From a virus: DNA of 61,169 bases. The notes below the pieces were generated by a model that made no database searches, was not told where the DNA came from, and was given only the letters and a program-made list of their open reading frames with translations. The stretch's first letter is position 1; each line of letters begins with the position of its first letter. Below, piece by piece: positions 12,123-39,882 of the stretch. The stretch lies in IMG/VR virus record IMGVR_UViG_3300046758_000288, positions 1 to 61,169 of that record; one strand, written 5' to 3'. A program made the position numbers and the translations under genes.

Positions 12123-14423
12123 ATGATTCAAGTTACCAAGCGAGACGGGCGTAAAGAGCCACTAGATATAGAAAAATTACACAAAGTAGTTTTTCATGCA
12201 TGTGAAAATATAACAGGAGTTAGCCCAAGCGAGGTAGAGATAAAAAGTCAAATTAGTTTTGCAAACGGTATGACTACTAAAGAAATTCAAGAAACTTTAA
12301 TTAAGGCTGCCGCTGATCTTATCAGTGAAGAAACACCAAACTATCAGTTCGTTGGTGGTAGGCTAATTAATTATGCATTACGCAAAGAAGTATACGGTAA
12401 CTATACACCTTGCACAGTGAAAGAACTTGTTGAAAGGAATATAGATTTAGGCTTTTATGATCCTGACCTCATTTCATATTATAACGACGAAGAGTGGCAA
12501 CGAATCAATAGTTTTGTTAAACACGAACGCGACGAAAACTTAACCTATGTAGCAATGGAACAGCTACGTGGCAAGTACCTATGTCAAAACAGAGTAAACG
12601 GAGAGATCTTTGAAACACCTCAAATGTGCTATGTACTAATTGCGGCAACATTATTCCAAAGTTATCCAACAGAAACTCGACTACACTGGATTAAAGAATA
12701 TTATGATGCTATTAGTTTACACGATATTAGTTTGCCTACTCCTGTTATGGCTGGTGTTAGAACTCCACAGCGACAATTCAGTAGTTGCGTCCTTATTGAA
12801 AGTGACGACAGTCTTGATAGTATTAATGCTACTGCATCAAGTATTGTTAAGTACGTAAGTCAAAAAGCAGGCATTGGAATTGGCGGCGGCAAGATTCGTG
12901 CTATTGGTTCGCCAGTACGTAAAGGTGATGCTTATCACACAGGTATTATCCCGTTTTATAAACTATTTCAAAGTGCAGTAAAATCGTGCTCGCAGGGCGG
13001 AGTTAGAGGCGGAGCCGCTACAGTATATTACCCAGCCTGGCATTTAGAAGTTGAAGAAATGTTAGTGCTAAAGAACAACAAAGGTACAGAAGATAATCGT
13101 GTACGCCATATGGACTACGGTGTGCAGTTTAATAAACTAATGTATGAAAGACTTATTGCGGGCGCCGATATAACTCTTTTCTCGCCTAGTGATGTACCAG
13201 GACTGTATGAAGCATTTTATGCAGACCAAGACAAGTTTAAAGAATTATATGAAACAGCAGAACGCAATACAAAGTTGCGTAAGAAAACTATTCCAGCTAT
13301 TCAATTGTTTAGTACATTTATGGAAGAGCGTAAGAATACAGGACGCATTTATCTACAGAACGTAGACAATGCTAATGAGCATGGGTCATTCCTTCCTGAG
13401 GTTGCACCTATTCGTCAATCAAACCTATGTGCAGAGATTGACTTACCAACAAAGCCACTAAAAGATCTTAATGACCCTGAAGGTGAGATTTCCCTATGTA
13501 CACTTAGCGCAATCAATTGGGGCAACATTAAATCAGTTAGTGATTTTGAAAGAGTATGTCGACTTGCAGTTCGTGGACTTGATGCACTATTAAGTTATCA
13601 AGACTATCCAATACTAGCCGCACAGTTATCTACAGAAAAGCGTAGACCTTTAGGCGTTGGCATTATTAATTTTGCATATTGGATGGCAAAGAACGGACTC
13701 GACTATCAGAATATTGATGCAGAAGGACTAGAACTAATTGACGAATGGGCCGAAGCATGGAGTTACTATCTAATTAAAGCGAGTGCTGACCTAGCCGCAG
13801 AGCAAGGAGCACCAAGTGGCAACATGGAAACAAAATACGGACATGGTATTACACCTAATCAAACATATTCAAAAGCCCTTGACGAGATTGTTCCTCACAA
13901 AGAACGTATGCCTTGGGATAAATTACGTGAACAACTTAAAGAAACAGGCATTCGTAATTCAACACTAATGGCACTTATGCCAAGTGAAACAAGTGCGCAA
14001 ATTGCAAATGCAACTAACGGAATTGAGCCGCCACGTTCGCTTATATCTATTAAACAAAGCAAGCACGGTGTACTTAAACAAGTTGTGCCTGAATATAAAA
14101 GGCTTAAAAACAAATATGATTTACTATGGGAGCACCGCTCACCTGAAGGGTATATTAAAATTGTGTCTGTACTACAGAAATACATTGATCAAGGTGTAAG
14201 CGTAAACACAAGCTACAACCCAACATATTTTGACGATGAAAAAATTCCGCTAAGTACAATGCTACAACATTTATTGTTGTTTTATAAACTAGGCGGCAAA
14301 CAATTATACTATTTCAATACATATGATGGCCAGGGCGAATTAGATGTCAACAAAATGTTTGAAACAGAACTAGCACCAACTGAAATTGAAGACGACGAAT
14401 ATTGTGAATCATGCACAATATAG
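12123..14423 (+). CDS. nrdA: Ribonucleotide reductase class Ia, large subunit
   Basis: Reduces ribonucleoside diphosphates to deoxy forms with NrdB. 766 residues, close to E. coli NrdA (761). An N-terminal ATP-cone (about 3-90, KRDGRKEPLDIEKLHKVVFH) suggests dATP/ATP overall activity control. The active site is visible: the redox Cys in FSSCVL, NLCAEI with the radical Cys and Glu, a second redox Cys in SLCTLSA, and the YYFNTYDG tyrosines for radical transfer. The C-terminal CESCTI provides the Cys pair that is re-reduced by glutaredoxin, which is encoded two genes on. Ribosome site AGAGGA precedes ATG. Confidence 0.96.
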   Translation: MIQVTKRDGRKEPLDIEKLHKVVFHACENITGVSPSEVEIKSQISFANGMTTKEIQETLIKAAADLISEETPNYQFVGGRLINYALRKEVYGNYTPCTVKELVERNIDLGFYDPDLISYYNDEEWQRINSFVKHERDENLTYVAMEQLRGKYLCQNRVNGEIFETPQMCYVLIAATLFQSYPTETRLHWIKEYYDAISLHDISLPTPVMAGVRTPQRQFSSCVLIESDDSLDSINATASSIVKYVSQKAGIGIGGGKIRAIGSPVRKGDAYHTGIIPFYKLFQSAVKSCSQGGVRGGAATVYYPAWHLEVEEMLVLKNNKGTEDNRVRHMDYGVQFNKLMYERLIAGADITLFSPSDVPGLYEAFYADQDKFKELYETAERNTKLRKKTIPAIQLFSTFMEERKNTGRIYLQNVDNANEHGSFLPEVAPIRQSNLCAEIDLPTKPLKDLNDPEGEISLCTLSAINWGNIKSVSDFERVCRLAVRGLDALLSYQDYPILAAQLSTEKRRPLGVGIINFAYWMAKNGLDYQNIDAEGLELIDEWAEAWSYYLIKASADLAAEQGAPSGNMETKYGHGITPNQTYSKALDEIVPHKERMPWDKLREQLKETGIRNSTLMALMPSETSAQIANATNGIEPPRSLISIKQSKHGVLKQVVPEYKRLKNKYDLLWEHRSPEGYIKIVSVLQKYIDQGVSVNTSYNPTYFDDEKIPLSTMLQHLLLFYKLGGKQLYYFNTYDGQGELDVNKMFETELAPTEIEDDEYCESCTI

Positions 14424-14452
14424 TTGACAACAGAGCAATAACGTGTTAATAT
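14424..14452 (+). promoter_or_regulatory. Sigma-70-like promoter for nrdB
   Basis: TTGACA 14424-14429, 17 bases, TAATAT 14447-14452, directly after the nrdA stop. nrdB and grx can therefore be transcribed apart from nrdA. Confidence 0.75.
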
Positions 14453-14489
14453 ACATAGACACGCAGAGACATAAAGGAAGTAAAATATA

Positions 14490-15617
14490 ATGGGCGTATT
14501 TGACGTAGATAACAGAGTCGATCATACTAAAGTAAAAGCATTTTTAGATCCATCAGGCGGTCCTACTATACAACGATATGATAATCTAAAGTATAAACAG
14601 TTTGACGGGTTAACTGACAAACAGTTAGGATTCTTTTGGAGACCTGAAGAAGTTGATATCTATAAGGATTCGGCTGACTTCAAGTCACTTACTGAACACG
14701 AACAGCATATCTTTACTTCTAATTTGAAGAGACAAATTCTATTAGATAGTGTTCAAGGTCGTGCACCTGCAGAAAGTTTTGGTTCTATTGTTTCTTTACC
14801 AGAACTTGAAAATTGGATCATTACTTGGACCTTTAGTGAAACTATCCATTCACGTAGTTACACACATATTATTCGTAATGTATATTCAAATCCAAGTAAA
14901 GTATTTGATGAACTTATGGATGTAGGTGAAATTGTTGATTGTGCAGATAGTATATCTAAACACTATGACGATCTTATTGAAACTAGTATGTATTACAACC
15001 TGTTAGGTGCAGGAACACACACAGTTAATGGCAATAAAGTAGAAGTAGATATGTACGAGCTAAAGAAAAAACTTTGGCTTGCGTTAATGAGTGTAAACAT
15101 TCTTGAAGGTGTTCGCTTCTATGTGTCTTTTGCATGTAGTTGGGCATTTGCAGAACTTAAAAAGATGGAAGGCAATGCTAAGATTATTAAACTTATTGCT
15201 AGAGATGAAAACTTGCATCTTGCATCAACACAAGCACTATTGAAAGTGTTAAAAACTGACGACAAAGACTTTGCAAAAATTGCAAAAGAAACAGAAGCTG
15301 AATGTATTCAGATGTTTGTAGAAGCAGTTGATCAAGAAAAAGAATGGGCTAACTATTTGTTCAAAGACGGATCAATGATTGGACTAAACACAGAATTGTT
15401 AAGCCAGTACATTGAATTTATTTGTACACGTAGAATGACAAACGTAGGTCTTAAAAGTCCATACAACCAAAAACAAAACCCATTGCCGTGGACACAGAAA
15501 TGGATCTCAGGAGCCGAAGTTCAGGTGGCACCACAAGAGACTGAGATAACTAGTTATGTTCAAGGCGGCACTAAACAAGATGTGTCAGCTGACACATTTA
15601 AAGGATTTAGTTTATGA
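14490..15617 (+). CDS. nrdB: Ribonucleotide reductase class Ia, small subunit
   Basis: Carries the diiron-tyrosyl radical for NrdA. 375 residues (E. coli 376). The iron ligands and tyrosine are in place: LLDS (Asp), SETIHSRSYTHIIRN (Glu, His and radical Tyr), LEGVRFYVSFACSWAFAE (Glu) and RDENLHLA (Glu, His). It has its own promoter after nrdA, and its last codons overlap the glutaredoxin start (ATGA), so the reductant is made with it. No truncation or intron is seen. Confidence 0.96.
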   Translation: MGVFDVDNRVDHTKVKAFLDPSGGPTIQRYDNLKYKQFDGLTDKQLGFFWRPEEVDIYKDSADFKSLTEHEQHIFTSNLKRQILLDSVQGRAPAESFGSIVSLPELENWIITWTFSETIHSRSYTHIIRNVYSNPSKVFDELMDVGEIVDCADSISKHYDDLIETSMYYNLLGAGTHTVNGNKVEVDMYELKKKLWLALMSVNILEGVRFYVSFACSWAFAELKKMEGNAKIIKLIARDENLHLASTQALLKVLKTDDKDFAKIAKETEAECIQMFVEAVDQEKEWANYLFKDGSMIGLNTELLSQYIEFICTRRMTNVGLKSPYNQKQNPLPWTQKWISGAEVQVAPQETEITSYVQGGTKQDVSADTFKGFSL

Positions 15618-24192: not shown

Positions 24193-24771
24193 ATGGCAAT
24201 GAATGCAGAACCTTGGTTTCCTAGTGTTATATGGAACGCTAACACACAAGGACTTGATAACAGTGTTTTAAAATCTTATGCATACGAACGTAAAAAAACT
24301 GATGTTGGCCGCAGTATTAGTAATTACGGCGGTTGGCAAAGTAGTGATGTTCGTCCCGGTGATTGTGCTGAACTAGATAAACTTGTTGAATATTTAGAAG
24401 CTGAACTAAATGAAATAGCAACTGGTGTTGGACTAAAACCAATTACTGTTTATAACTTATGGATAAACATTAATCCACCCGGTAGTTATAATGTTGAACA
24501 CAATCATATGAATTCTGTTTTAAGTGGAGTTTATTATATCGATGCACACGAGTCTCAAGGCAATATCAATTTTATGAGAAATGACGGTGCTGAATATCAT
24601 TTGCAAGATAATATAGTTGAGCAAGTTCATCACTTTAATTCTTCCAAAACAACATATCCTGCAAAGACCGGAGCATTGTATGTTTTTCCCGGATGGTTAA
24701 AACACAGTGTAGACGGTAACAGTACTGATAAAGACAGAATTAGTATATCGTTTAACACAGGTGTTAAATGA
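24193..24771 (+). CDS. 2-oxoglutarate/Fe(II) oxygenase-like protein
   Basis: 192 residues. WININPPGSYNVEHNHMN then SGVYYI, and later ALYVFPGWLKHSV followed by RISISFN, match the double-stranded beta-helix oxygenases often found in marine T4-like phages (2OG-FeII_Oxy_5 type). Iron-binding His residues lie in EHNH and KHSV, and the Arg of DRISIS would bind 2-oxoglutarate. The substrate is unknown. Overlaps the next gene by 4 bases. Confidence 0.75.
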   Translation: MAMNAEPWFPSVIWNANTQGLDNSVLKSYAYERKKTDVGRSISNYGGWQSSDVRPGDCAELDKLVEYLEAELNEIATGVGLKPITVYNLWININPPGSYNVEHNHMNSVLSGVYYIDAHESQGNINFMRNDGAEYHLQDNIVEQVHHFNSSKTTYPAKTGALYVFPGWLKHSVDGNSTDKDRISISFNTGVK

Positions 24772-24997: not shown

Positions 24998-26149
24998 ATG
25001 CGTATTGAAGAAGATATGAAACTTGACTACAAGGATGTTCTTATTCGTCCTAAGCGAAGCACACTAGGTAGTCGTAAGGAAGTAGATCTTGAACGTGGAT
25101 TTACATTTCGTAATTACAAACCAGAGTTTCCAGATAACGCAGTATACAGACACTATCGTGGTGTTCCTATTATGGCTTCTAATATGGATGGTGTCGGCAC
25201 ATTTGAAATGGCTGATACACTTGCTAAACAAAAGATTATGACTTGTTTAGTTAAGACATATGCAGTAAATGAGTTAGTTAATTTTTTCGATAGTGTGATG
25301 CACGAGCGTACAGAATATGTTGCAATGAGCATTGGTATTACAGATGCAGATCATCTAAAGTTTAGAAATGTATACGAACAAACAGGCAATCAATTGAAGT
25401 ATGTTTGTATTGATGTAGCAAATGGTTATTCCGAGAGATTTGCTACGTTTGTAAAAGAATTTAGAAACCAGTATCCTAACATCGTTATTATTGCAGGTAA
25501 TGTAGTTACTGGTGAAATGACAGAGGAGTTAATTCTAAGTGGAGCAGATATTGTTAAAGTTGGTATTGGCCCTGGGAGTGTTTGCACTACTCGTATCCAA
25601 ACTGGCGTTGGTTACCCTCAGCTTTCTGCTGTTATCGAATGTGCAGACGCCGCTCACGGCCTTGGCGGTCACGTTATCGCTGATGGTGGCTGTACTTGTC
25701 CTGGTGATGTGGCTAAAGCATTTGCTGGAGGTGCTGATTTCGTTATGCTAGGAGGCATGCTTGCTGGGCACGATGAAGGCGGTGGCGAAGTAATCACTAG
25801 ACATTATGTAACAAATGAAATAGAATATGAAGTTGGCAATCATTTAGATAATCGCAAACAAAAAGTAGAAGAAAAAAAGTTTGTACAGTTCTACGGAATG
25901 TCAAGTGAAAGCGCAAATGACAAGCACTTTGGTGGCTTGAAGGAGTATAGAAGCAGTGAAGGAAGAACGGTTCTTGTGCCTTACAGAGGCTCAGTGGAAA
26001 CCACTACTCAAAATATATTGGGTGGTGTGCGTAGTACTTGTACTTATGCTGGCGCAGTGCGATTGAAACACCTAATGAGATGTGCAACATTTGTACGTTG
26101 TACACAAACTCACAATGGCGTTTATGAAAAATCAACAATAGGTAACTGA
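24998..26149 (+). CDS. guaC: GMP reductase
   Basis: Converts GMP to IMP and ammonia with NADPH, moving guanine nucleotides back to the purine branch point. 383 residues. The core [11 protein letters not shown] with the catalytic Cys, then [37 protein letters not shown] and [10 protein letters not shown], follow GuaC and differ from IMP dehydrogenase, including the absence of CBS domains. [13 protein letters not shown] and [12 protein letters not shown] correspond to the flap. The stretch 25560-25790 appears richer in G+C and GCT/GGT codons than its neighbours. Start ATG with weak ribosome site; stop overlaps the next ATG. Confidence 0.93.
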
Positions 26150-26861: not shown

Positions 26862-28514
26862 ATGTCTGAAGCAGACTTAACTTCAAAAATGGTACGGTTT
26901 GGTGAAGAGAATCGTACTGCTTTATTAGAAGGTGTTAACATACTTTCAAACGCTGTTAGGACTACACTAGGTCCTAAAGGTCGTAATGTAATTATTCAAG
27001 TACCGTTGAAACAACCAGTAGTTACAAAAGACGGTGTTACAGTAGCTCAAGAAGTTATGTTAGACGACCCATTAGAAAACATGGGCGCACAAATGGTATT
27101 AGAAGCCGCAAGAAGAACTAATACTGATGCTGGTGATGGCACTACTACAGCTACAGTTTTAACACAAGCAATTATCACTGAAGGATTAAAACTTGTAACA
27201 GCTGGTATGAATCCTATGGATTTAAAAAGAGGTATTGATGCAACTGTAGAAGTTATTGCTGATAACTTAGATAAGCAATCACAACCTTGCACATCTAAAG
27301 AAGATTTAGAAAATGTCGCTAGTTTATCTGCAAACTCTGATAGAGCCATTGGTGAAAAAATTGCTGATGCTTTAATGAAAGTCGGAACTAATGGTGCAGT
27401 ATCAGTTGATATACACGCTGATAGAAAAGACCATGTTGAAATTGTTAAAGGTTGTAGATTTGACAGAGGCTATATGAGTCCTTATTTTTCTAACAACTTA
27501 GAAGATATGACTATTGTTCATGAAAATGCATTAATATTATTATACGATAAAAAGATTACTACTCTTAATCCTTTAATTAAATTATTTGAACAAGTAGCAA
27601 CTACAGGATTAGCATTGATAATCATTGCAGAAGATATTGAACCTGATGCATTAAATGTTTTAGTACAAAATCATACGAGTGGTGCATTTAAGGTAGCCGC
27701 AGTTGTTGCTCCAGGATATGCTGATAGAAGACTTCCGATACTAGAAGACATTGCAACACTTACAGGTGGTAATGTTATTTCAGATGAACTTAATCGAAGT
27801 TTAGAAGATGCACAAGTTACTGACTTAGGTAAAGCAGAACGAGTTGAAATTGGTAATCTGTTTACTACAATTATCGGTGGCCGTGGTGATCCAGAAAAAA
27901 TAAAAGAACGTATAACACTTATTAAAAATCATTTATTTTCAGCATCAAATGATCATAACGCAAACAAATTAAAAGAAAGACTATCATCAATGGATGGCGG
28001 AGTTGCAATTATTAAAGCAGGCGGCTCATCAAAAATAGAAGCCATGGAAAAGAAAGATAGATATGTAGATTCATTACATGCGACAAGTGCGGCAAGAGAA
28101 CAGGGCATTGTACCTGGCGGTGGTGTTGCACTACTTAACGCAGTAAAGGATATCCAAGTAAGTGATCTTAACTTAGTAAACTTGGATCAAGAAGCAGGTG
28201 CTAAAATTGTACTAAAAGCAGTTGAAGCACCTATTCGACAAATAACTAGCAATGCTGGCGGAGCGCCTGATGTAGTAGTTGATAGTATATTTAAATCAAC
28301 AGAAAATACATTTGGCTATGATGCGGCAACTGATAGTTATGGTAACATGTACGACTTAGGAATTATTGATCCTGTTAAAGTAACACGAAGTGCATTACTA
28401 AATGCATCTAGTGTAGCAGGCTTGTTAATAACTTCTGAGTGCAGTCTTACTGACATTATGCCTGTACATGAACGTCTCGGAAGAATAAAAAACGAAAAGA
28501 CGGTTGTTCTCTGA
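26862..28514 (+). CDS. groEL: Chaperonin GroEL (Hsp60)
   Basis: 550 residues, full length (E. coli 548). The ATP site is intact: TTLGPKGRNV, TKDGVTVA, GDGTTTATVL (catalytic Asp), VDSLHATSAAREQGIVPGGG with the second ATP-hydrolysis Asp, and YDAATDSYGNMYDLGIIDP near the end. It lacks the Gly-Gly-Met tail and ends NEKTVVL. T4-like phages usually supply only a co-chaperonin (gp31) for host GroEL; here a whole GroEL is encoded and no GroES-like gene is seen in the window. Divergence from bacterial GroEL is visible throughout, so it is an old phage gene or diverged quickly. Confidence 0.95.
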   Translation: MSEADLTSKMVRFGEENRTALLEGVNILSNAVRTTLGPKGRNVIIQVPLKQPVVTKDGVTVAQEVMLDDPLENMGAQMVLEAARRTNTDAGDGTTTATVLTQAIITEGLKLVTAGMNPMDLKRGIDATVEVIADNLDKQSQPCTSKEDLENVASLSANSDRAIGEKIADALMKVGTNGAVSVDIHADRKDHVEIVKGCRFDRGYMSPYFSNNLEDMTIVHENALILLYDKKITTLNPLIKLFEQVATTGLALIIIAEDIEPDALNVLVQNHTSGAFKVAAVVAPGYADRRLPILEDIATLTGGNVISDELNRSLEDAQVTDLGKAERVEIGNLFTTIIGGRGDPEKIKERITLIKNHLFSASNDHNANKLKERLSSMDGGVAIIKAGGSSKIEAMEKKDRYVDSLHATSAAREQGIVPGGGVALLNAVKDIQVSDLNLVNLDQEAGAKIVLKAVEAPIRQITSNAGGAPDVVVDSIFKSTENTFGYDAATDSYGNMYDLGIIDPVKVTRSALLNASSVAGLLITSECSLTDIMPVHERLGRIKNEKTVVL

Positions 28515-28525
28515 GATAAATAAAG

Positions 28526-28554
28526 TTGACATTATAGTAAAAAGAGTTTATTAT
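28526..28554 (+). promoter_or_regulatory. Sigma-70-like promoter for hsp20
   Basis: TTGACA 28526-28531, 17 bases, TATTAT 28549-28554. A late-like ATAAATA (28516-28522) precedes it. Confidence 0.7.
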
Positions 28555-28612: not shown

Positions 28613-29071
28613 ATGACAAGACTAACAACTCTAGACCTACCCAACTTTAACAGAGCTACTATTGGCTTTGATAGACTATTTAATGAACTTGAAAGAGGTT
28701 TTGCAAATAGCCCAAACGGAAACGGGTATCCTCCATACAACATTGCACAAATTGACGAAGATGAGTATATGATCTCATTGGCTGTTGCCGGCTTTGGTAT
28801 GGACAATCTTTCAATTGAAAAAGATGGAAACACTTTAAAGATTGAAGGTACTGCTCCTAAAGGAGACGATGATGTCAATTACCTACACAAAGGTATTGGC
28901 GGACGCAACTTCCGCAGAGAGTTTACACTTGCAGATCACGTAGATGTAGTTACTGCAAACTTAGAACTAGGTATGCTAAATGTACACCTAAAGCGTGAGC
29001 TTCCAGAAGAGCTACAACCTAAGAAAATTAAGATCAATGACGGTCTTACAATCGAGGGAGAAAGCAAGTAA
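28613..29071 (+). CDS. Small heat-shock protein (Hsp20/IbpA family)
   Basis: 152 residues. The N-terminus (FDRLFNELERG) is the IbpA-type opening. The alpha-crystallin domain follows (PPYNIAQIDEDEYMISLAVA, GFGMDNLSIEKDGNTLKIEG, RREFTLADHVDVVTANLELG) with the closing ELGMLNVHLKRELPEE. It holds unfolding proteins for refolding. Hsp20 genes are common in marine T4-like phages. It has its own promoter; a strong GC hairpin separates it from clpS. Confidence 0.92.
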   Translation: MTRLTTLDLPNFNRATIGFDRLFNELERGFANSPNGNGYPPYNIAQIDEDEYMISLAVAGFGMDNLSIEKDGNTLKIEGTAPKGDDDVNYLHKGIGGRNFRREFTLADHVDVVTANLELGMLNVHLKRELPEELQPKKIKINDGLTIEGESK

Positions 29072-29079
29072 AGCGTCTA

Positions 29080-29099
29080 GGGGGGTGGTAACGCCCCCC
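29080..29099 (+). promoter_or_regulatory. GC-rich intergenic hairpin with GTAA tetraloop
   Basis: Arms GGGGGGTG / CGCCCCCC around a GTAA loop between hsp20 and clpS. No T run follows, so RNA stability or processing is more likely than termination. Confidence 0.55.
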
Positions 29100-29118: not shown

Positions 29119-29433
29119 ATGACAGACATAGACCTAGAAGAAGTTATTAAGATCGATGAAAAGATTGAAGAAAAGATTACTGAGCCTTTAAAGCACAAAG
29201 TAGTATTTTTGAATGATGATCAAACTCCAATGGAATGGGTAATTGATGTATTAACTAACATTTTCAATCACTCGCAAGAAACTGCTGAAAAGATTACACT
29301 TCAGATTCATGCAGAAGGTTCCGGTGTTGCAGGTATATACAGTTACGAGATAGCTGAACACAAGGCTATTGAAACTGTAAATGCTAGTAGAGACAAAGGG
29401 TTTCCGCTAAATGTGAGGATTGAACAAGAATAA
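29119..29433 (+). CDS. clpS: ClpS adaptor protein
   Basis: Delivers N-degron substrates to ClpAP. 104 residues: acidic N-terminal extension, then KHKVVFLNDDQTPMEWVIDV (the N-D-D substrate-binding site), VLTNIFNHSQETAEKITLQI, HAEGSGVAGIYSYEIAEHKA and FPLNVRIEQ, all as in ClpS. clpP lies at 52479, but no ClpA or ClpX ATPase is seen in the window, so it would act on the host ATPase. Phage ClpS could redirect or inhibit host proteolysis. Co-directional with the heme oxygenase gene one base downstream. Confidence 0.92.
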   Translation: MTDIDLEEVIKIDEKIEEKITEPLKHKVVFLNDDQTPMEWVIDVLTNIFNHSQETAEKITLQIHAEGSGVAGIYSYEIAEHKAIETVNASRDKGFPLNVRIEQE

Positions 29434-29434
29434 C

Positions 29435-30001
29435 ATGAGTAATTTAAAAGAACTAACCTGGGAACATCATAAGAATGCAGAAAGGCAAGAATTTGCTAGT
29501 TTAATGATGTCTGGTAAAATTAATCCAGACTTGTATGCTACATACTTGTGGAACCAACATAAAAAATACGATCTACTTGAAGCTATTGCGGCACCTATGG
29601 GATTGTTTTCAACACTAGGTGACATTCGTCGTAAACTTTTAATTGAAGAAGATTTTAGAGAACTTTGGAAACATACTGAAGAGCCTATTATTACTCAAAG
29701 TACACACGAATATATAATGCATATGCGAGACCTTATTGGCAATGCTGACAAACTAACTGCTCATATGTATGTATTATACATGGGTGACCTTAGTGGTGGC
29801 CAGATGATTAAGAAACGTATACCGGGTGCAGGTAAAATGTATGACTTTGAAGGCGATACAAAAGCTATCAAAGAAAGCATTAGAGCAATGTGCAATGACG
29901 ATATGGCAGAAGAAGCAAAATATGTGTTTGACTCTGCAACAAAATTATTTCAAGAATTGATGGAGTTAAATATTGAGCCTTATATGGAACAAACTAATTG
30001 A
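29435..30001 (+). CDS. Heme oxygenase
   Basis: Opens heme to biliverdin, Fe(II) and CO. 188 residues. The proximal His lies in EHHKNAERQEF and the distal helix is YMGDLSGGQMI, the G-D-x-S-G-G-Q signature. The preceding aromatic stretch ATYLWNQHKKYDLLE is also family-typical. ATG 29435 lies one base after the clpS stop. It overlaps the bilin reductase gene by 29 bases, which fixes its product's next step. Electrons would come from a ferredoxin not seen here. Cyanophages carry ho1 for phycobilins; this copy is in a phage with alphaproteobacterial signs. Confidence 0.93.
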   Translation: MSNLKELTWEHHKNAERQEFASLMMSGKINPDLYATYLWNQHKKYDLLEAIAAPMGLFSTLGDIRRKLLIEEDFRELWKHTEEPIITQSTHEYIMHMRDLIGNADKLTAHMYVLYMGDLSGGQMIKKRIPGAGKMYDFEGDTKAIKESIRAMCNDDMAEEAKYVFDSATKLFQELMELNIEPYMEQTN

Positions 30002-30665
30002 ATGTCAAAATGAGATTATTTCAATCTTTGACGAGCAAGCTAAAGAAATTAATGAACCCGGACTTGATTATTTTAACCGCCCCGATGGTGGTTGGGTTAA
30101 CCGCGTTTGGGCTAATGATAATGTTAGACGAGCTCACATTGATGTAGTCGATGCACGTGAGTCTAAAGGCTTGTGGATGATGCATGTATGCATCTTTCCA
30201 ACACTAGACAATCCAGCACCTATTTACGGCTTTGATGTCATTGCCGGCAAGAACAAAATGACTGGAGCCTTCCACGACTTTAGTGCAAGTGCTGATCCTA
30301 ATCATCCTATGATACAAGGTTACTTTGAAAGTGTAGAACATTTTGTTCCTAAGAAAAGACGTGAACTACCAGAATGGGCTACAAATATTTTTACAGAAAA
30401 AATGCTTGCCGCTAGTAATGTAAACACAGACGAAGAAGCAACAGAAATTATTCGTATTGCACTAGATAACTTGCGAGCATACTTTGATGAAGTAGGATTA
30501 TCAAAAGGCGAAGGCGATAGAGCAATAGTTGCCGCAAGTCAAGACTATTACTGTCATAACCAGCAACAGAATCCGCATACTCCTAATGTAATGAAGTCAT
30601 TAGGTCTCAACGAAGATGATGTAGACAAGTTCTGCACAGACATGTTGTTTCCTAAACTTGCATAA
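29973..30665 (+). CDS. pcyX: Ferredoxin-dependent bilin reductase (PcyX/PebS type)
   Basis: Reduces biliverdin from the overlapping heme oxygenase gene. 230 residues, the family length. NVRRAHIDVVDARESKGLWM, MHVCIFPTLDNPAPIYGFDV and IAGKNKMTGAFHDFSAS are the conserved core, with the His of MMHV and the Asp of GFDV as likely catalytic residues; SQDYYCHNQQQNPHT follows near the C-terminus. PcyX was described from oceanic phage metagenomes as a phycoerythrobilin-forming enzyme paired with a heme oxygenase; that pairing and the host signs favour PcyX over PebS, but a tree is needed. Start TTG at 29973 after GGAG. Confidence 0.85.
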   Translation: MSLIWNKLIECQNEIISIFDEQAKEINEPGLDYFNRPDGGWVNRVWANDNVRRAHIDVVDARESKGLWMMHVCIFPTLDNPAPIYGFDVIAGKNKMTGAFHDFSASADPNHPMIQGYFESVEHFVPKKRRELPEWATNIFTEKMLAASNVNTDEEATEIIRIALDNLRAYFDEVGLSKGEGDRAIVAASQDYYCHNQQQNPHTPNVMKSLGLNEDDVDKFCTDMLFPKLA

Positions 30666-30688: not shown

Positions 30689-32341
30689 ATGCGTTTCAAT
30701 GACTTTAAACTAGTAGAATCAAAAAAATTATACGAAACGGCTAATGCTGGGCTTGAAGCTCAACATGCCATTCATGATATTGAAGCTATTAGTGATGCTG
30801 TACCTGCAATGGATCCACAGTTGAAAGCAAGCATTTTATCTAACTTACAAAATCTTGCTTCAAAGGTTGGAGATTTTGTTGCTAAGAATATAAAGCAAAC
30901 TCAACCTACTCAACAAGCACAACCACAAGCACAGCCTAACGATCCAAATGCTACAGTAGAAGAAGCAGTAGCAGAAGTAAACAGTGAAGATCAAGAAGCA
31001 CAAGCGGCACTTGCAAAACTAAAAGCTGACATTGCCGCAATTGAATCAAGTAACATTGATGACAGTATCAAAGCAAGTTTCTTAGCAAGTCTAAATGAAA
31101 CACTAGATAAACTTACACAAGCATCAGAAAGAATAACTGCTTCACGTGATACAGCACGTAGCGAACGTGACGAAGCAATTAACTTTGTTAAAGAAGTTAC
31201 AGGAGTACTTGTAACACTAGGTAACAAGGTACAAGGCTTCCAAGAAGACACTGATACAGAATCAATGACAGCCAAAGATAGAGCATCATTTAAAAAGATG
31301 GCTGTTAATGCAGAGAAGTTTACTAAAACACTAAAGCAAGCTCTGTTTGGTAAAATACTTGACATGCAAGAAGGCAGTGATGTTACTGGACAAGAAATAA
31401 AAGAATTTTTAGAAGCATGTGTACGTGGCGATGTAATTAACATGCTACAAGTTATTGGCACAAGCCAAGGTAATATTAAAGATCATGTTAATCCAAAATA
31501 TCAAAAAGTGTTTGATGTATTTGTAGAAGAAAACATCTTTAGTTATGCGCCAGGCACAACATCAGGTGCTATTGGTCCAGGCGAAATGGCTCTGTCAATG
31601 ATGGGTAACCCTGCTGAAAAAGGCAAGAAGGGCGACTTGAAGATTGGTGACGAAGAAGTTGAAATCAAAGCGAGTGCAAAAACAGGTGGACGCTTTAACA
31701 GTAAAGCTATTGCTAAAGCAACTACAGGTTGGCAAACTTGGGCTCAAAAGATTAACGACATAATGACTCAAGCACCAGAAGATGCAACTATATCAGTTAC
31801 ACAAAAAGATGGTTCAGAAAAACTTATTCCTGCACGTGAGTACAATGGTAACAGACACAATGTAATCAAAGGCAAAGCCAAAGAAGGTAGCAAGTACAAT
31901 TGGAATGCATCAGGCTTTAAAGCTCTAAACATTGAAGTATTACAACCTTACTCAAACTTACGACAAACGTTTGACTTGTTTGAATCTACTATACGAGCTC
32001 TTGTACAGAACTATGACAAACTAAGTAAACCACAACAAGGTAATTCACATCACAAGCCATTTAATCCAGGTGACTTGATTGAAGCCGCTATCAACGATGA
32101 CGGCACAGTTGATATGAAGAAAATGAATATTGCGTATTCTAAAATTGCATATGCAAGTTATCACTTAGCAGATGGTATTACAACTGTTATGCTTCTAAGA
32201 ACTGATAACTTAGAGTACACTATATTTAGAAACGCAGACGAACTAGTTGATCAAATGAACAGCGACAGTATTATTACTGGCGGTGGATTTAACTGGAATG
32301 ACGATCAACAAACACCTACTCCAGGTTATATAGCTTCCTAA
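30689..32341 (+). CDS. Large late protein with nuclease-like core and capsid-targeting-like N-terminus
   Basis: 550 residues. MRFNDFKLVE at the start is nearly the same as in the ligase-like gene at 3248 and resembles the cleaved peptide of T4 internal head proteins. A Gln/Pro linker (about 69-90) and a coiled coil (100-170) follow. GPGEMALSMMG (296-306) then KGDLKIGDEEVEIKAS (314-329) gives E299, D316, E325 and K327, the E-D-ExK pattern of PD-(D/E)XK nucleases. The rest is unassigned. It may be a nuclease delivered with the phage DNA or acting in the head. Confidence 0.6.
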   Translation: MRFNDFKLVESKKLYETANAGLEAQHAIHDIEAISDAVPAMDPQLKASILSNLQNLASKVGDFVAKNIKQTQPTQQAQPQAQPNDPNATVEEAVAEVNSEDQEAQAALAKLKADIAAIESSNIDDSIKASFLASLNETLDKLTQASERITASRDTARSERDEAINFVKEVTGVLVTLGNKVQGFQEDTDTESMTAKDRASFKKMAVNAEKFTKTLKQALFGKILDMQEGSDVTGQEIKEFLEACVRGDVINMLQVIGTSQGNIKDHVNPKYQKVFDVFVEENIFSYAPGTTSGAIGPGEMALSMMGNPAEKGKKGDLKIGDEEVEIKASAKTGGRFNSKAIAKATTGWQTWAQKINDIMTQAPEDATISVTQKDGSEKLIPAREYNGNRHNVIKGKAKEGSKYNWNASGFKALNIEVLQPYSNLRQTFDLFESTIRALVQNYDKLSKPQQGNSHHKPFNPGDLIEAAINDDGTVDMKKMNIAYSKIAYASYHLADGITTVMLLRTDNLEYTIFRNADELVDQMNSDSIITGGGFNWNDDQQTPTPGYIAS

Positions 32342-32421: not shown

Positions 32422-32508
32422 ATGGAACTATTAATAATGATTATAGTAATTGGTTTAACTATCCCGTTTGTAGGATTGCTTTGGATGTTCTATGATATGT
32501 TCAAGTAA
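32422..32508 (+). CDS. Short single-helix membrane peptide
   Basis: 28 residues, nearly all hydrophobic (LLIMIIVIGLTIPFVGLLWM), ATG preceded by AAAGGAGA at good spacing. Its last 8 bases overlap the opposing Fis-like gene. Too small to name. Confidence 0.55.
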   Translation: MELLIMIIVIGLTIPFVGLLWMFYDMFK

Positions 32509-32761
32509 CGCTAGGAAATCCGTACTTTTTCATTTTAGCAATTAAATTGGTTCTGCCTATCTTTAATAGTTTGGCAGCCTTAGTTTGATTGCCTTCAGAT
32601 CTTGCAAGTGCATCACTAATTCTATCACGTTCAAGCATTTCAACTTCATCAGGTAATGCAGTTTCAAATTTAAGTTGCTCGTGATATTCGGCAAGTTCTC
32701 CGCATATGTTCCAAAGTGCTTCTTGTTCTTCTCGGTATTTTTGAGTTTCTAAATCATTCAT
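32501..32761 (-). CDS. Fis-type helix-turn-helix regulator
   Basis: 86 residues. The C-terminal ERDRISDALARSEGNQTKAA followed by KLLKIGRTNLIAKMKKYGF is the Fis/NtrC DNA-binding helix-turn-helix. The N-terminal half is a helical, probably dimerising segment. It is on the minus strand just upstream of the curli-like operon and reads away from it, so it may control that operon or its own promoter. Alternative: a nucleoid-type protein like host Fis. Confidence 0.75.
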   Translation of the reverse strand: MNDLETQKYREEQEALWNICGELAEYHEQLKFETALPDEVEMLERDRISDALARSEGNQTKAAKLLKIGRTNLIAKMKKYGFPSVT

Positions 32762-32878: not shown

Positions 32879-33337
32879 ATGAAAAGATTATTATTATTAG
32901 CGGCTATATTTATTACCTTTGCTCCCAACATTGCGGCTAGCGAACTAAATTGGGGTTTCAAAAATCCTAGTTTTAGTGGACAAGGCTATTCATCGCACGT
33001 ATTAAGTGCTGAACAGCTACAGTTTAATCGCAAGCAAGACATTGAAAAAGAGGCAGAAGCAGAGGCAAGAAGAATAGAACGCGAACTAGAAAACAGTACT
33101 CTTAATAAGTTTTTAAAGAACGTAGAGAGTAGAATATATGCACAAATATCCAAACAGATGGTTGATGCAATGTTTGCAGATTGTACAGATACGTGTTCTA
33201 ACACAGGCACAGCAGAGATTGAAGGTTCAACAATAACTTGGATAAAAGCAGACGGGATGATAACTTTGACTATTGTAGGTGAAGACGGTACAGTAACAGA
33301 GATAGCAATACCGGCAGATGGAGATTTTAGCTTTTAA
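32879..33337 (+). CDS. csgF: Curli assembly protein CsgF-like
   Basis: 152 residues. Signal peptide to about residue 20 (AAIFITFAPNIAA). The mature start SELNWGFKNPSFSGQG matches the N-terminal peptide of CsgF that plugs into the CsgG pore (F-x-N-P-x-F-G-G). A helical segment and a beta C-terminus (TITWIKADGMITLTIVGEDG) also fit. It lies one base before csgG. Acidic/basic helix EAEAEARRIEREL is an insertion relative to E. coli CsgF (138 residues). It probably helps anchor exported curlin at the outer membrane. Confidence 0.85.
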   Translation: MKRLLLLAAIFITFAPNIAASELNWGFKNPSFSGQGYSSHVLSAEQLQFNRKQDIEKEAEAEARRIERELENSTLNKFLKNVESRIYAQISKQMVDAMFADCTDTCSNTGTAEIEGSTITWIKADGMITLTIVGEDGTVTEIAIPADGDFSF

Positions 33338-33338
33338 C

Positions 33339-34346
33339 ATGAAAGTACTCATTGCCCTATTATCACTAGCATTGCTAGGCGGGTGTGCTATGAATCCTAG
33401 TTTACAAACGTTAAGAGATTCAGAGACGTCACCTGTAGTACAGGAATCACCAATCGCAGAACGATTAGAAGATGTACCTGTAATTGATGGACCCAAGATT
33501 ACAATAGCTGTTTATAGTTTTAGTGATAAAACAGGACAGCGAAAACCAAGCGATGCTGTATCAAATTTGAGTTCAGCAGTAACACAAGGTGGTGAAGTTT
33601 GGGTAATCAAAGCTCTGCAAGATATAGGAAACGAAGGGTGGTTCGAAGTAGTTGAACGAGTAGGGATGGATAATCTCATTAAAGAAAGACAACTTATTCG
33701 ACAAACACGTGAGCAGTACGAAGGCAAAGAAGCTACTAATTTACAGCCGTTGTTATTCGCAGGGCTTATTTTAGAGGGAGGCATAATTGGGTATGACAGC
33801 AATGTTGCTGTTGGAGGTGCAGGCGCAAGATGGCTAGGCGTTGGTTCTCAAACTCAATACAGAATAGATACCGTTACTATAGCATTAAGAATTGTTAGTG
33901 TAAGTACGGGGAAGGTGCTTTTAAGCATAGCAACTGAAAAAACGATTGCAAGCCATCAGTCCGGAGCGGACATATTTAAGTTCCTAGATATGGGGACTAG
34001 ATTGTTAGAAACTGAGATAGGATTTTCAGTTAACGAACCGGTAAACTACGCTACAAGGGCTGCCATCGAGCAGGCAGTAGTTGAGTTAGTTTACGAAGGA
34101 GAAAAAAAGGGACTTTGGAAGTTTAAAGATAGAACATACACAGGAACATTACCTGCAACTAGACCATTAAAACTAAGCGAAGCATTAGAAAAATGGCCAG
34201 ATCAAAGATTGTATTGTGATGCAACTGATATGTGTTATCCGGCAACGGCTAAAGATAACAACCAAATGAGGGATAATAATGAAGTTAAAGATGTTAACAT
34301 TGTCGTTGATGACACTGCTAATGACGACTCCGGCTCTGGCGAATGA
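33339..34346 (+). CDS. csgG: Curli export lipoprotein CsgG-like
   Basis: Outer-membrane channel of curli (type VIII) secretion. 335 residues from ATG 33339. Lipobox LLGGC places the lipid-bearing Cys at 16. ITIAVYSFSDKTGQRKP, WFEVVERVGMDNLIKERQLI, LQPLLFAGLILEGGIIGYDS and TVTIALRIVSVSTGKVLLSI follow CsgG closely. The C-terminal extension (from about 275, acidic and low complexity near the end) is longer than in E. coli (277 residues). Its end overlaps the signal peptide of the first curlin-like gene by 68 bases. Confidence 0.92.
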   Translation: MKVLIALLSLALLGGCAMNPSLQTLRDSETSPVVQESPIAERLEDVPVIDGPKITIAVYSFSDKTGQRKPSDAVSNLSSAVTQGGEVWVIKALQDIGNEGWFEVVERVGMDNLIKERQLIRQTREQYEGKEATNLQPLLFAGLILEGGIIGYDSNVAVGGAGARWLGVGSQTQYRIDTVTIALRIVSVSTGKVLLSIATEKTIASHQSGADIFKFLDMGTRLLETEIGFSVNEPVNYATRAAIEQAVVELVYEGEKKGLWKFKDRTYTGTLPATRPLKLSEALEKWPDQRLYCDATDMCYPATAKDNNQMRDNNEVKDVNIVVDDTANDDSGSGE

Positions 34347-35031
34347 TATCTATATTACACAAGTAGGTGATAATTTAGATTTAGACATTACACAAGACGG
34401 GTCTGATAACCAGTTTGGTGATAGCACTACCGGTGTTTCACTAGCAGGTGACGGCATGGTGTTCTCAATTACACAAACGGGCGACAGCAATGATATTGCG
34501 GCAGTTATTAATGGTGATTCATATACTGGTACATGGGTATTTACTGGTAACACAAACGTAGTAGATTTTAAATGTGACAGTCTAGGTACCGCAGGTGCAG
34601 GCAACTGTGAATCTGTTGATCTTGATATTACTACTACAGGTGATGACAATACTTTTAAATTTTATATAGGCGAAAACTCAGACGCTGAAGGGGCTGATGT
34701 AACATTTACTGTTACTGGCGACGACAACGTAGTTGATGCTGATATAGATGGTATAGATTCAACTGTAACCGTTGTAGTAAACAACAGTACTAGTTTACAC
34801 TCTGGTGGTGCTACTAGTGCAACTGACAATACCTTAAGTTCAACTAATGCAGGTAACATTATTGATATAGACGTAGATGGTGCTGGTGATGCAAACGGAC
34901 ACTTGATAGACTTAACAGTCACAGGTGGAGGTAATGTATTCACTATTACACAAAGCGGCACAGGCGATAACGTAATTGATGCAACTTTTACAACTGAAGG
35001 TAGTACAGTAGACATTACGCAGAGCGATTAG
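34279..35031 (+). CDS. Curlin-repeat secreted protein (first copy)
   Basis: 250 residues. Signal peptide ending ALA before NDIYITQVGD. Repeats of the curlin type (I-x-Q-x-G-D/S-x-N): ITQVGDNLDLDITQDGSDNQ, ITQTGDSNDIAAVI, VTGDDNVVDADI, ITQSGTGDNVID. Very acidic and Asn/Gly/Thr rich, as expected for an extracellular beta-solenoid. It is longer than CsgA (151 residues) and has irregular repeats. Probable substrate of the CsgG channel. The start overlaps csgG by 68 bases. Confidence 0.8.
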   Translation: MKLKMLTLSLMTLLMTTPALANDIYITQVGDNLDLDITQDGSDNQFGDSTTGVSLAGDGMVFSITQTGDSNDIAAVINGDSYTGTWVFTGNTNVVDFKCDSLGTAGAGNCESVDLDITTTGDDNTFKFYIGENSDAEGADVTFTVTGDDNVVDADIDGIDSTVTVVVNNSTSLHSGGATSATDNTLSSTNAGNIIDIDVDGAGDANGHLIDLTVTGGGNVFTITQSGTGDNVIDATFTTEGSTVDITQSD

Positions 35032-35032
35032 T

Positions 35033-36169
35033 ATGAAAATACTAATTCTCGTTTTATCCGTTTTTCTGGCTAGTTCAACGTTGGCGAATGCCCAAATAGG
35101 CACCGTAACAGAACTTAACGGAGTTGGACAGATAAAACGTGACAAGGATATAATAGGCAACGACACAGGCACGTCTGTTGAACAAATGGACGAAGCAATT
35201 ACAGAAAAGGGCAGGATGCGTATTGACTTTGTTGATGACACACGATTAGATGTTGTTGATCATAGCAGAGTAGTTATTGACGAATTTATATACGATCCTG
35301 CTACAGGCACAGGGAAACTAGATATTAGAGCAAGCATTGGTGCTGTTCGATATGCTAGTGGACAGATTGCCAAAAACTCAAGACAGCAAGTAAGATTAAG
35401 AACTCCAACAGCAACTATTTCTGTACGTGGCACAGACTTTGCTATGATTGTAAATGAAATTGGCGAAAGTTATGTAACATTACTACCTAGTTGCGAATAT
35501 GACGGAATGGGCAACGAGCTCGAATGTGTAACCGGAGAAATTAAAGTAGAAAATGACGGCGGCTATGTTATTATGAATCAAGCATTTCAAATGACTCGTG
35601 TTAATAGTTACAGCCAGCGTCCTAGTCCTCCTGTTATTGTTGACCTTACCGAACCACAGATTACAGGTATGCTTATAGTAAGACGCAAAGATCCTATTAC
35701 TACAGCACAAGAAAAAGTATATCTAGAACAAAGAAAAACAGACATATTAAGTTTTGATTTTTTAAAGTTTGACGAATTAGAACAAGATGAACTTGTAGAC
35801 AGCATCAAAGACATATGGGTAACAGAGTTAGATAGAGGTGCTGACTATTATCTACGTGAACAGTTGCTAAATATGATTGACGAGTTAAACAAGGCCTTAT
35901 TAAAAAGTTTTCAAGATGAGCTACAAAAACAAAACGAAGAATTTTTTAAAGATAGAGCGTTAGGCTACGATGAAGATACAGGCATGTTTATAGATTTTGA
36001 AGATCCGATGTGGCACATACGCAGACAGGATGTTAGTATAGAGAATACAATAGACATATATCTACACAACGAGTATGGATATAAACTTAATATAGAGCAG
36101 GGTGATGAAGCAGTATACGATTATATGCTTGGCGTTGGCAACAACAATATTAATATCAAACAACGCTAG
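35033..36169 (+). CDS. Secreted FecR-domain protein
   Basis: 378 residues. Signal peptide (LILVLSVFLASSTLANA), then a FecR-type domain: DTRLDVVDHSRVVIDEFIYD, LDIRASIGAVRYASGQIA and TPTATISVRGTDFAMIV. Two Cys residues (PSCEYDGM, ELECVTG) may pair. The C-terminal half is helical and charged. Such periplasmic FecR proteins bind ligands or wall polymers and differ from cytoplasmic anti-sigma FecR. It lies between the two curlin genes and ends by overlapping the second, so it is part of the curli-like operon. Confidence 0.8.
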   Translation: MKILILVLSVFLASSTLANAQIGTVTELNGVGQIKRDKDIIGNDTGTSVEQMDEAITEKGRMRIDFVDDTRLDVVDHSRVVIDEFIYDPATGTGKLDIRASIGAVRYASGQIAKNSRQQVRLRTPTATISVRGTDFAMIVNEIGESYVTLLPSCEYDGMGNELECVTGEIKVENDGGYVIMNQAFQMTRVNSYSQRPSPPVIVDLTEPQITGMLIVRRKDPITTAQEKVYLEQRKTDILSFDFLKFDELEQDELVDSIKDIWVTELDRGADYYLREQLLNMIDELNKALLKSFQDELQKQNEEFFKDRALGYDEDTGMFIDFEDPMWHIRRQDVSIENTIDIYLHNEYGYKLNIEQGDEAVYDYMLGVGNNNINIKQR

Positions 36170-36818
36170 GGCAAATGACATTTATATCAACCAAGTAGGT
36201 GACAACTTGGAAATGCAAGTTATACAAGATGGCGATAACAACTATTTCCAGTATTGTACAAACGGCAATGATTCAAATTGTAAAGATGTAAACGGCAACG
36301 CACACGGTCGGGCAGACGGATTTACTAGTGACGATGCTATAGTGAATAGTGGTACAGTTGGCAACGATAATAAAGTTGTTGTAGCACACGCTACTGGAAC
36401 AGGCAATAATAACATCAATGAAACAAACATTGGAATCATAGGTGATCGCAACAAAGTACAAAACTTCTTTTCAAACCACAGTAGTGGAAGCCACAATTAT
36501 AGTAATCAAGATTGGGGCGGTACTAAAGAAACTAATATTATGATTACAGGCGATGACAATTATGTAAAGGTTGACAGCGATAGTTATGGAGAAGTATATA
36601 GTGAGATTGAAGTAACTGGTGATGACAACAGTGTAATACTATGGCAAAGGTCAATGAATAATAGTGCTTCAATAGACGTAACCAATGCAGGCGGCCCTAG
36701 TACTGTTACTGTTCATCAACTTGGTAGTAGTTACCAAGACACAGGATTAAACACATACGGTATTTCACAGACATGCGCTAATGCCAATGGTTGTTCAGTC
36801 ACTGTGACGCAAAACTAA
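36105..36818 (+). CDS. Curlin-repeat secreted protein (second copy)
   Basis: 237 residues from ATG 36105 (GTG 36102 is the codon before). Signal peptide ending ARA before NDIYINQVGDN, the same mature start as the first copy. Repeats include QVIQDGDNNYF, GTVGNDNKVVV, ITGDDNYVKVD, VTGDDNSVILW. Cys residues occur in two places (YCTNGNDSNCKD, CANANGC). Its signal peptide is encoded inside the end of the FecR gene, as for the csgG/first curlin pair. Probably forms mixed fibers or a nucleator/subunit pair with the first copy. Confidence 0.8.
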   Translation: MKQYTIICLALATTILISNNARANDIYINQVGDNLEMQVIQDGDNNYFQYCTNGNDSNCKDVNGNAHGRADGFTSDDAIVNSGTVGNDNKVVVAHATGTGNNNINETNIGIIGDRNKVQNFFSNHSSGSHNYSNQDWGGTKETNIMITGDDNYVKVDSDSYGEVYSEIEVTGDDNSVILWQRSMNNSASIDVTNAGGPSTVTVHQLGSSYQDTGLNTYGISQTCANANGCSVTVTQN

Positions 36819-37827: not shown

Positions 37828-39882
37828 ATGAAAAGATTACTAAGCCCTTGGTGGGCATTATTAACACTAGGGGTATTAGTATATGCGTTTGCAAATCCTA
37901 ATAATTTTTTGCAAAGTATCAAACTAAATTACTTTGATCAACTGATTATTAATCAAGAACCAACGCAAAACAATATCTTTGTAGCAGAAATTGACGATGC
38001 TACTATAGACAAGTTTGGACAATATCCTTTTCCAAGACACATATACTCAAACATTATTATTGACTTATATGACAAAGGAGCAGGGCTAGTTGTATGGAAT
38101 ATAATGATGCCCGAAGCAGACCGATTAGGTGGTGACGCTGATCTTGCAACAACAATGAGTCAGCTACCAGTTATACTAGCAAGTCGTCCCAGCGACAAAA
38201 CAAAGAACGAACCTATAAATCCTGGGGCCGCAATATTACAAGCACAGTTTTTAGATCGCATATTACCATACGGCGGTATTATTGCAAATATTCCAGAACT
38301 TGAAAATAATAGTGTTGGGGCAGGAATCGTTTCAACTGAGCCGGAGATAGATGGTGTTGTAAGACGCATGCCAACTGTCGCTGTCGTAGACGGTACACTA
38401 TATCCTAGCCTAGCATTAGAAACTCTACGTGTTATTGCAGGCGATCCTAATTTCCAAATTAAACTTAATCAGTTTGGTATTGAAAAAATGCGTATACCAA
38501 ACTTTGGTCCAATACCTACTGACTCAGAAGGGCGTGTATGGATAGACTGGAGTCAACGTTCTAATCGTATAAGCGTAACTGACTTATATAAAGAAGATGG
38601 TATAATGTCATTTCAAGGTGCAATAGTAATAGTAGATGTTACAGCAACAGGTGTAGCAAACCCTGTTCCAACAGCAATAGGCGCACAATATGCAGGAACT
38701 ACACAAGCGGCTGTACTAGGTACAATGTTTAATGGTACAAATATACAGCGTCCTGATTGGGCACCTGATGCAGAACTGTTAGCACTAGCTATAGGTGGGT
38801 TATTGCTTATACTACTCAGCCGTTGGATGTGGTTAGGTCTTGTTACAACAGTTGTAATGATAGGCGGAGTTGTACCTTACAGCATATATGCGTACACAAC
38901 AGAAAAGTTTCTTTTAGATGTTACAGCACCTGTTATAGTATTTGTAATAATTGCATTGCAAGTATATGGTATCAAATTTGTACGAGAATTCTTAGAAAAG
39001 CAAGCAATAAAGAAACAGTTCGCAGGATACGCATCACCTACTGTAGTACGCTTATTACAGGAAAATCCGGCACTTATTAAAGACGGTATGAAACGAGAAG
39101 TAAGCATACTGTTCTCAGACTTGCGTGGCTTTACTCCACTAGGTGAATCATTTGGTGATGACGTAAAAGGACTTACCAAAATAATGAATGGCTATATGGA
39201 TGCGATTACACAACCGGTGCTAGACGCAGACGGAATGATAATCAAGTATATTGGTGATGCTAGTATGCACATACACAACGCACCTATAGATGATCCTCAT
39301 CATCCACGAACCGCAGTGGAGACAGGATTATTAATGTTAAAAGCGGTGGAGAAGTTTAATGATAAAATTACAGCAGAAGGACGACCACCTGTCGGTATGG
39401 GTGCGGGAATCAATACAGGACTGGGCTATCTTGGAGAAATGGGTAGCACCGCAAGACATTCGTACGATGTACTTGGAGACGCAGTCAGTACCGCCGCAAG
39501 AATCGAAAGCAAATGTAAAGAATACGGATGTCTACTCTTAGTTGGAGATGCAACTTATCAACAAACTAAAGACAACTTCTTTTACTTAAAGGTAGATGAC
39601 TTGCAAGTAAAAGGTAAAAGTGTAGGATTAAGTATATACACTGTACTTGATGTTAAAGGAACACACGCCCAAAAGAAAAGTCAAGAAATGCACGAGCGTA
39701 TGCACGATGCATATAGATCACAGAAGTTTGATGAAGCAATATATATTTGCGAAAGATTAAAACGTCATTTTGATGGCAAGATGGAAGGCTATTATGACAT
39801 GTGGATTGAACGTTGTGAGTTCCAAAAAACTCAAGATTTACCGTCTGATTGGAATGGTGTGTTTATTGCTACAAGTAAGTAG
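37828..39882 (+). CDS. CHASE2-domain class III nucleotidyl cyclase
   Basis: 684 residues. An N-terminal helix, a CHASE2 sensor (about 40-300; FVAEIDDATIDKFGQYPFPR, VVWNIMMPEADRLGG), three membrane helices at about 314-385, then a class III catalytic domain. VSILFSDLRGFTPL and IKYIGDASMHIHNAP give both metal-binding Asp residues and the adenine-selecting Lys. DVLGDAVSTAARIESK has the transition-state Arg but Ser where Asn is usual. It would make cAMP (or another cyclic nucleotide) in response to a periplasmic signal. It follows the curli-like genes. A membrane cyclase is very unusual for a phage. Confidence 0.88.
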   Translation: MKRLLSPWWALLTLGVLVYAFANPNNFLQSIKLNYFDQLIINQEPTQNNIFVAEIDDATIDKFGQYPFPRHIYSNIIIDLYDKGAGLVVWNIMMPEADRLGGDADLATTMSQLPVILASRPSDKTKNEPINPGAAILQAQFLDRILPYGGIIANIPELENNSVGAGIVSTEPEIDGVVRRMPTVAVVDGTLYPSLALETLRVIAGDPNFQIKLNQFGIEKMRIPNFGPIPTDSEGRVWIDWSQRSNRISVTDLYKEDGIMSFQGAIVIVDVTATGVANPVPTAIGAQYAGTTQAAVLGTMFNGTNIQRPDWAPDAELLALAIGGLLLILLSRWMWLGLVTTVVMIGGVVPYSIYAYTTEKFLLDVTAPVIVFVIIALQVYGIKFVREFLEKQAIKKQFAGYASPTVVRLLQENPALIKDGMKREVSILFSDLRGFTPLGESFGDDVKGLTKIMNGYMDAITQPVLDADGMIIKYIGDASMHIHNAPIDDPHHPRTAVETGLLMLKAVEKFNDKITAEGRPPVGMGAGINTGLGYLGEMGSTARHSYDVLGDAVSTAARIESKCKEYGCLLLVGDATYQQTKDNFFYLKVDDLQVKGKSVGLSIYTVLDVKGTHAQKKSQEMHERMHDAYRSQKFDEAIYICERLKRHFDGKMEGYYDMWIERCEFQKTQDLPSDWNGVFIATSK

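Follow-up and report, generated by a model that had tools for sequence, protein, structure and literature searches.

The synthesis of bilin pigments by phages whose hosts lack phycobilisomes is an acknowledged puzzle. The cassette of heme oxygenase (HO) and the bilin reductase PcyX, its biochemistry and the riddle of its purpose have already been published (PMC11480375 and work cited there). Here, we ask what kind of phage carries such a pair, and to what end, in a 61,169-base virus record of IMG/VR (the window, i.e. the whole stretch of DNA analysed), where HO, PcyX, hsp20, clpS and groEL are all located on the + strand. As the whole explanation we propose, with a probability of roughly 85%, a HO–PcyX cassette of a non-cyanobacterial phage that would lead from host heme to the pink pigment phycoerythrobilin (PEB); its purpose may, with clearly lower confidence, be a managed heme turnover. 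The pair itself is already known; new are a second PcyX lineage and its operon.

Gene organisation of the locus

The region comprises the following features:
24998–26149, +: IMP dehydrogenase/GMP reductase (IMPDH; PF00478), conserved upstream neighbour
26862–28514, +: groEL (PF00118, E 1.7e-65), often missing in relatives
28526–28554, +: sigma-70-like promoter match TTGACA-17-TATTAT (11/12) before hsp20, possible operon promoter
28613–29071, +: hsp20 small heat-shock protein (PF00011, E 2.6e-15), first gene of the conserved block
29080–29099, +: GGGGGG..CCCCCC hairpin in the hsp20–clpS gap, possibly acting as attenuator or stabilising an mRNA 3' end
29119–29433, +: clpS, Clp protease adaptor (PF02617, E 1.3e-26)
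29435–30001, +: HO, 188 aa from ATG 29435, the ORF being also open from TTG 29420
29962–29965, +: GGAG within the HO gene, likely ribosome-binding site of pcyX, 7 bases before TTG 29973
29973–30001, +: overlap of the HO and PcyX reading frames, 29 bases
29973–30665, +: PcyX-type ferredoxin-dependent bilin reductase, 230 aa, TTG start

The HO start codon lies one base past the clpS stop. The overlap of HO with the reductase amounts to exactly the 29 bases given in the original prediction, as follows from the TTG 29973 start with its upstream GGAG and from the conservation of the first PcyX residues (M-S-L-I-W) in relatives. The same 29-base overlap recurs in 24 related loci and overlaps of 1–41 bases occur in 55 of the 75 loci having both genes. 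It had also been read as fixing biliverdin as intermediate; this follows from the enzyme chemistry and not from the overlap, which, as far as gene arrangement can tell, shows tight co-expression. The promoter match has to be taken as tentative because sigma-70-like matches in the region (19 observed, 21.2 expected) are no more numerous than by chance, and terminator-like sites number 3 compared with 2.9 expected. The T4 late-promoter motif TATAAATA was rejected, being rarer than its chance expectation. A short Fis-type HTH_8 protein (32501–32761, −), kept in 26 loci between the PcyX operon and a curli block further downstream, represents a candidate regulator.

Identity of heme oxygenase and bilin reductase

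HO matches PF01126 (66 bits, E 4.5e-18) and the heme oxygenases of the PDB (E 6e-11), and the reductase matches PF05996 (60 bits, E 3.7e-16). Both Pfam scores are well over the curated cut-offs, which excludes chance matches. The window HO possesses the two features of a canonical heme oxygenase, namely the proximal heme ligand histidine (H17 of the 193-aa ORF, kept in 80 of 81 rows) and the distal GDxSGG signature, found here as GDxSGGQ on the distal helix with G122, D123, G126 and G127 kept in 80–81 of 81 rows. Purifying selection acts on both genes, dN/dS being 0.23–0.30 for HO and 0.07–0.15 for PcyX, and HO diverges faster.

The best solved relative of the reductase is PcyX_EBK42635 (PDB 5owg; E 1.7e-78) with 266 bits versus 48 bits for PcyA. 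A structure model built from 28 viral sequences (mean pLDDT 94.6) gave 5owg as the top Foldseek match, too (E 1.1e-16, TM 0.95 by target length). The catalytic residue that marks PcyX is Asp55 in place of Glu76 in PcyA (PMC11480375), and its counterpart in the window, D57, is Asp in all 67 rows of the PcyX clade and Glu in all 8 PcyA rows. H71 and D88, corresponding to H88 and D105 of PcyA, are invariant in the alignment. In the tree the PcyA rows form one side of a branch (support 98–100) and the window together with the PcyX rows the other (99). Identity to cyanophage PcyA is 21–27% (E about 1e-8 to 1e-6); PebS gave no match by sequence to the window reductase and a weak fold match only (E about 1e-4). 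The reductase thus shows neither the close kinship nor the Glu76 of the cyanophage PebS/PcyA enzymes, and by its primary structure and modelled fold it is a putative PcyX, i.e. a phage phycoerythrobilin synthase, and neither cyanophage PcyA nor PebS. The original prediction of a HO–PcyX type pair is borne out by family matches, structure, Asp57 and tree; a firm position within cyanophage PebS with cyanobacterial host signals, named there as the outcome that would speak against it, was not found.

Judged from characterised relatives, the chemistry of the pair in activity and product is near-certain. HO would convert host heme and O2 to biliverdin IXalpha, CO and Fe2+, and PcyX would reduce biliverdin via dihydrobiliverdin to PEB with four electrons from host ferredoxin. 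Gene searches for photosystem, phycobilisome, PHY, GAF and Fer2 covered the window and 26–29 relatives. Among these no Fer2 ferredoxin gene was detected; a phage ferredoxin was therefore dropped as electron donor and the host protein presumably supplies the electrons.

Two sub-clades of viral PcyX in two gene contexts

The scan with the window protein yielded 218 viral contigs and that with the protein of the Pelagibacter phage Mosig 194. Viral PcyX divides into sub-clade J (window group) and sub-clade P (Mosig group, pelagiphage), and all counts below refer to the best 80 of the 218 (J) and the best 80 of the 194 (P), two sets without overlap. Mean identity is 73% within J, 80% within P and 53% (maximum 60%) between them. 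Each sub-clade forms one side of a branch with modest support (J 70, P 89), so the root position within PcyX is unsure. As a mixture-model tree gave absurdly long branches to PebS and PcyA, identities and a simpler tree were used for the definition of the sub-clades.

The neighbourhood of PcyX differs between J and P. HO is found near PcyX in 75 of the 80 J loci. The same holds for clpS (75/80) and hsp20 (72/80), both with 0/80 in P, as well as for IMPDH (69/80) and csgF/csgG (about 40/80), both with none in P; the P contigs are short, hence distant neighbours could escape, but clpS and hsp20 would fall within 2 kb. The order hsp20–clpS–HO–PcyX is strictly contiguous in 60 of the J loci and a 2OG oxygenase homologue is present near PcyX in 44. 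T4 neck genes flank the cassette in 64–73 of the 80 P loci and in none of the 80 J loci, i.e. clade J lacks what is typical of pelagimyophages of the Mosig/HTVC008M type. Originally groEL and clpS had been described as upstream neighbours. Both are indeed present in the window and hsp20 between them was overlooked; among the relatives it is hsp20 and clpS that accompany the pair as fixed neighbours, groEL being found in just 11/80. In four loci (L068, L069, L070 and L082), PcyX is surrounded by a different set of phage genes and HO is missing from its vicinity. Among open-licence papers none was found that links jumbo phages to bilin reductases or ClpS to a phage HO.

Phage lineage and probable host

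At 275 kb (37% G+C), L021 is the largest J record and carries a tail sheath. Its terminase comes closest to that of PA5oct-like jumbo phages of Pseudomonas (54%) and then to that of Sinorhizobium phage Phosso (50%), which is the result of one record only, as the window contains no terminase. A window protein (58230–59519) present in 13 of 15 relatives has its best matches in PA5oct-like, Stenotrophomonas, Sinorhizobium and Caulobacter phages and one weaker match in a Synechococcus elongatus phage. The ribonucleotide reductase (RNR) of the window is closest to that of a Stenotrophomonas phage. Photosystem (psbA/psbD; Photo_RC) and Phycobilisome genes were detected in 0 of 27 and 0 of 30 records with a positive control genome, the records being fragments in which absence is no proof. 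From the kinship of terminase, marker protein and RNR, together with the lack of Photo_RC and Phycobilisome genes, the host is likely a non-cyanobacterial, probably proteobacterial marine bacterium.

Two further host clues were discarded. The T4-type Gp23 capsid marker gave no match in the searched records and was silent in the controls as well, hence it is uninformative on the host. Bacterial homologues were confined to two small MAG-binned contigs (Pirellulales, Halobacteroidaceae) with the same phage synteny, and are therefore read as mis-binned phage DNA.

Possible purposes of the cassette

What the phage gains from this pathway can be proposed tentatively: a managed heme turnover within a hsp20–clpS stress operon, with iron release and a protective bilin. 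HO would free iron for Fe-dependent phage enzymes such as 2OG-Fe(II) oxygenases and class I RNR, two of which are encoded in the window:
24193–24771: 2OG oxygenase, Fe-dependent
12123–15617: RNR, Fe-dependent
PcyX would clear biliverdin, pull the HO reaction forward and leave a stable quenching bilin. Iron supply is mentioned as a discussed role (PMC11480375). This purpose deserves low confidence because PcyX is not needed to release iron and is better conserved than HO; a faster-diverging HO is the reverse of what is expected if HO were the main and PcyX the accessory enzyme. The four loci without nearby HO count against heme turnover as well. Moreover, 5-aminolevulinate synthase (AlaS) scores over its curated cut-off in 5 of 30 relatives and would build heme, which is more than merely stripping it and argues against the iron purpose. 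Heme supply and heme breakdown can consequently coexist in one phage, as was reported for other phages (PMC11480375).

A less probable explanation is that PEB enters a bilin-binding protein of the host, i.e. a phytochrome or a bilin-binding globin, and could jam host light sensing. PEB has no photoisomerisable 15,16 double bond and could therefore lock phytochromes, as it is known to do. No phage-encoded partner would be necessary, and a phytochrome or bilin-binding globin was proposed for the related PcyA phage CB_2 (PMC11480375). The search for a phage photoreceptor suggested originally came back empty, since PHY, GAF and Phycobilisome domains are all missing in the window and the relatives searched. 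A pigment receptor encoded by the phage is thus not evident, such a role would depend wholly on a host protein, and the hsp20–clpS linkage is silent on light.

Less probable still is that the bilin serves as building block of a modified tetrapyrrole, with HO and PcyX being part of a longer cluster in some relatives. Between HO and PcyX, a flavin-dependent enzyme of the tryptophan-halogenase family (PF04820, 301 bits) is inserted in L049, L058 and L078–L080, a CN_hydrolase in L031, L038, L039, L043, L044, L049, L058 and L076, and a 2OG-Fe(II) oxygenase in L045 and L076; on the tree these genes were gained repeatedly (halogenase at least 2 changes, CN-hydrolase 4). The window itself has no insert between HO and PcyX and no halogenase at all, inserts are found in just 12 of the 80 J loci, the CN_hydrolase match is barely above its cut-off, and halogenases also occur elsewhere in the L081 record. 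Accordingly, the inserts may modify the bilin or the locus may merely gather metabolic genes. Halogenase-family genes are found in L049, L058, L078, L079, L080 and L113 (the L081 record), and the L081 record has three copies outside the HO–PcyX interval. In L076 a second heme-oxygenase-like paralogue (2629–3255) between HO and PcyX has GDxSGG changed to GNLEHGD and is perhaps a heme- or bilin-binding pseudo-enzyme.

It is very improbable that the window reductase forms phycocyanobilin as PcyA does. A PcyX-like viral sequence of the freshwater phage CB_2 has true PcyA activity (PMC11480375), but this exception is devoid of the PcyX-specific Asp55, which is present in the window and throughout the PcyX clade. 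PEB is a phycobilisome chromophore, and HO as well as bilin reductases are known from many cyanophages, yet a cyanophage origin of the window, with the pigment feeding host phycobilisomes, is hardly credible, given the low identity to cyanophage PcyA in a separate clade, the lack of Photo_RC and Phycobilisome genes in window and relatives, and a lineage terminase and window marker with best matches in Pseudomonas, Sinorhizobium and Caulobacter phages.

Managed heme turnover is the tentatively preferred purpose. A broader scenario appears rather unlikely in its full extent: apart from the pelagiphages, another lineage of large marine phages would have fixed bilin synthesis in a protein-quality-control operon (hsp20–clpS–HO–PcyX), in some cases together with AlaS and with a halogenase, a CN-hydrolase or a 2OG oxygenase for tailoring, thus making and in some forms modifying a bilin for non-photosynthetic use. 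Several leads arise from the divergent sub-clade of PcyX in this lineage, with its more than 200 contigs and fixed operon partners: the proteostasis or stress context, host ferredoxin as donor, and the halogenase-containing forms, which may disclose a modified end product.

Other genes near the cassette

The slot directly after PcyX (window 30689–32341) is occupied by unrelated or barely related proteins in the relatives (clusters 19, 21, 22 and 40). All of them begin with MR(Y/F)xxFK(L/I)xE, which resembles the T4 capsid-targeting sequence with its cleavage site, and a window protein at 3248 (DUF6267) begins alike. Members of clusters 40 and 19 contain an invariant D...ExK (D316, E325, K327) as in PD-(D/E)XK nucleases, and the predicted fold of the 30689–32341 protein gave no PDB match. 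Possibly, these proteins are nucleases that the phage head takes up as a variable cargo.

Further downstream lies a curli block (32879–36818), which about 40 of the 80 relatives likewise have after PcyX. Beside csgF, csgG and a FecR-domain protein it encodes two curlin-repeat proteins, one scoring just above its Pfam cut-off (34279–35031) and another with a weaker match (36102–36818). Pelagimyophages were reported to be without recognisable curlin subunits (PMC7029224), hence the phage group of the window may hold a more complete curli system. Next to the FecR and curli genes lies one (37828–39882) whose product combines a membrane CHASE2 sensor with an adenylate/guanylate cyclase domain; it is found in 21 of 80 relatives as well.

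Comparison with known systems

The original prediction correctly described the role of such pairs in oceanic phage metagenomes as unexplained; a cultured phage of a non-cyanobacterial host and the published work were left out. This phage is Mosig EXVC030M (Pelagibacter phage, MT647606) of a SAR11 host, in which Mosig_00054/00053 show the same HO–PcyX order and both sets of catalytic residues. Its frames overlap by 14 bases compared with 29 in the window, and the proteins of both phages are 51% (PcyX) and 47% (HO) identical. Next to the Mosig cassette lie 2OG oxygenases together with T4 neck genes, next to that of the window hsp20–clpS, and Mosig is a pelagimyophage of about 141 kb whereas the window group represents a larger lineage.

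The cyanophage enzymes PebS (P-SSM2, PDB 2vck) and PcyA (P-SSM4) belong to the same FDBR superfamily and are phage-borne, too, but distant from the window PcyX. PcyX_EBK42635, a PEB synthase from a marine metagenome, is the closest structure by sequence and fold; the equivalents of its Asp55 and Asp86 are kept in the window, but it falls in the pelagiphage sub-clade P and the window in J. With the vHemO–vPcyA/X–vAlaS cassette of aquatic phages (PMC11480375) the window shares the hemO and pcyX pair, AlaS being located elsewhere in some of its relatives. In that paper, the text of which does not mention hsp20, clpS or halogenase, gp13 served to place the marine contigs among pelagiphages, while clade J is devoid of Mosig-like neck genes. 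With a second phage lineage carrying PcyX, the idea of a pelagiphage oddity is removed.
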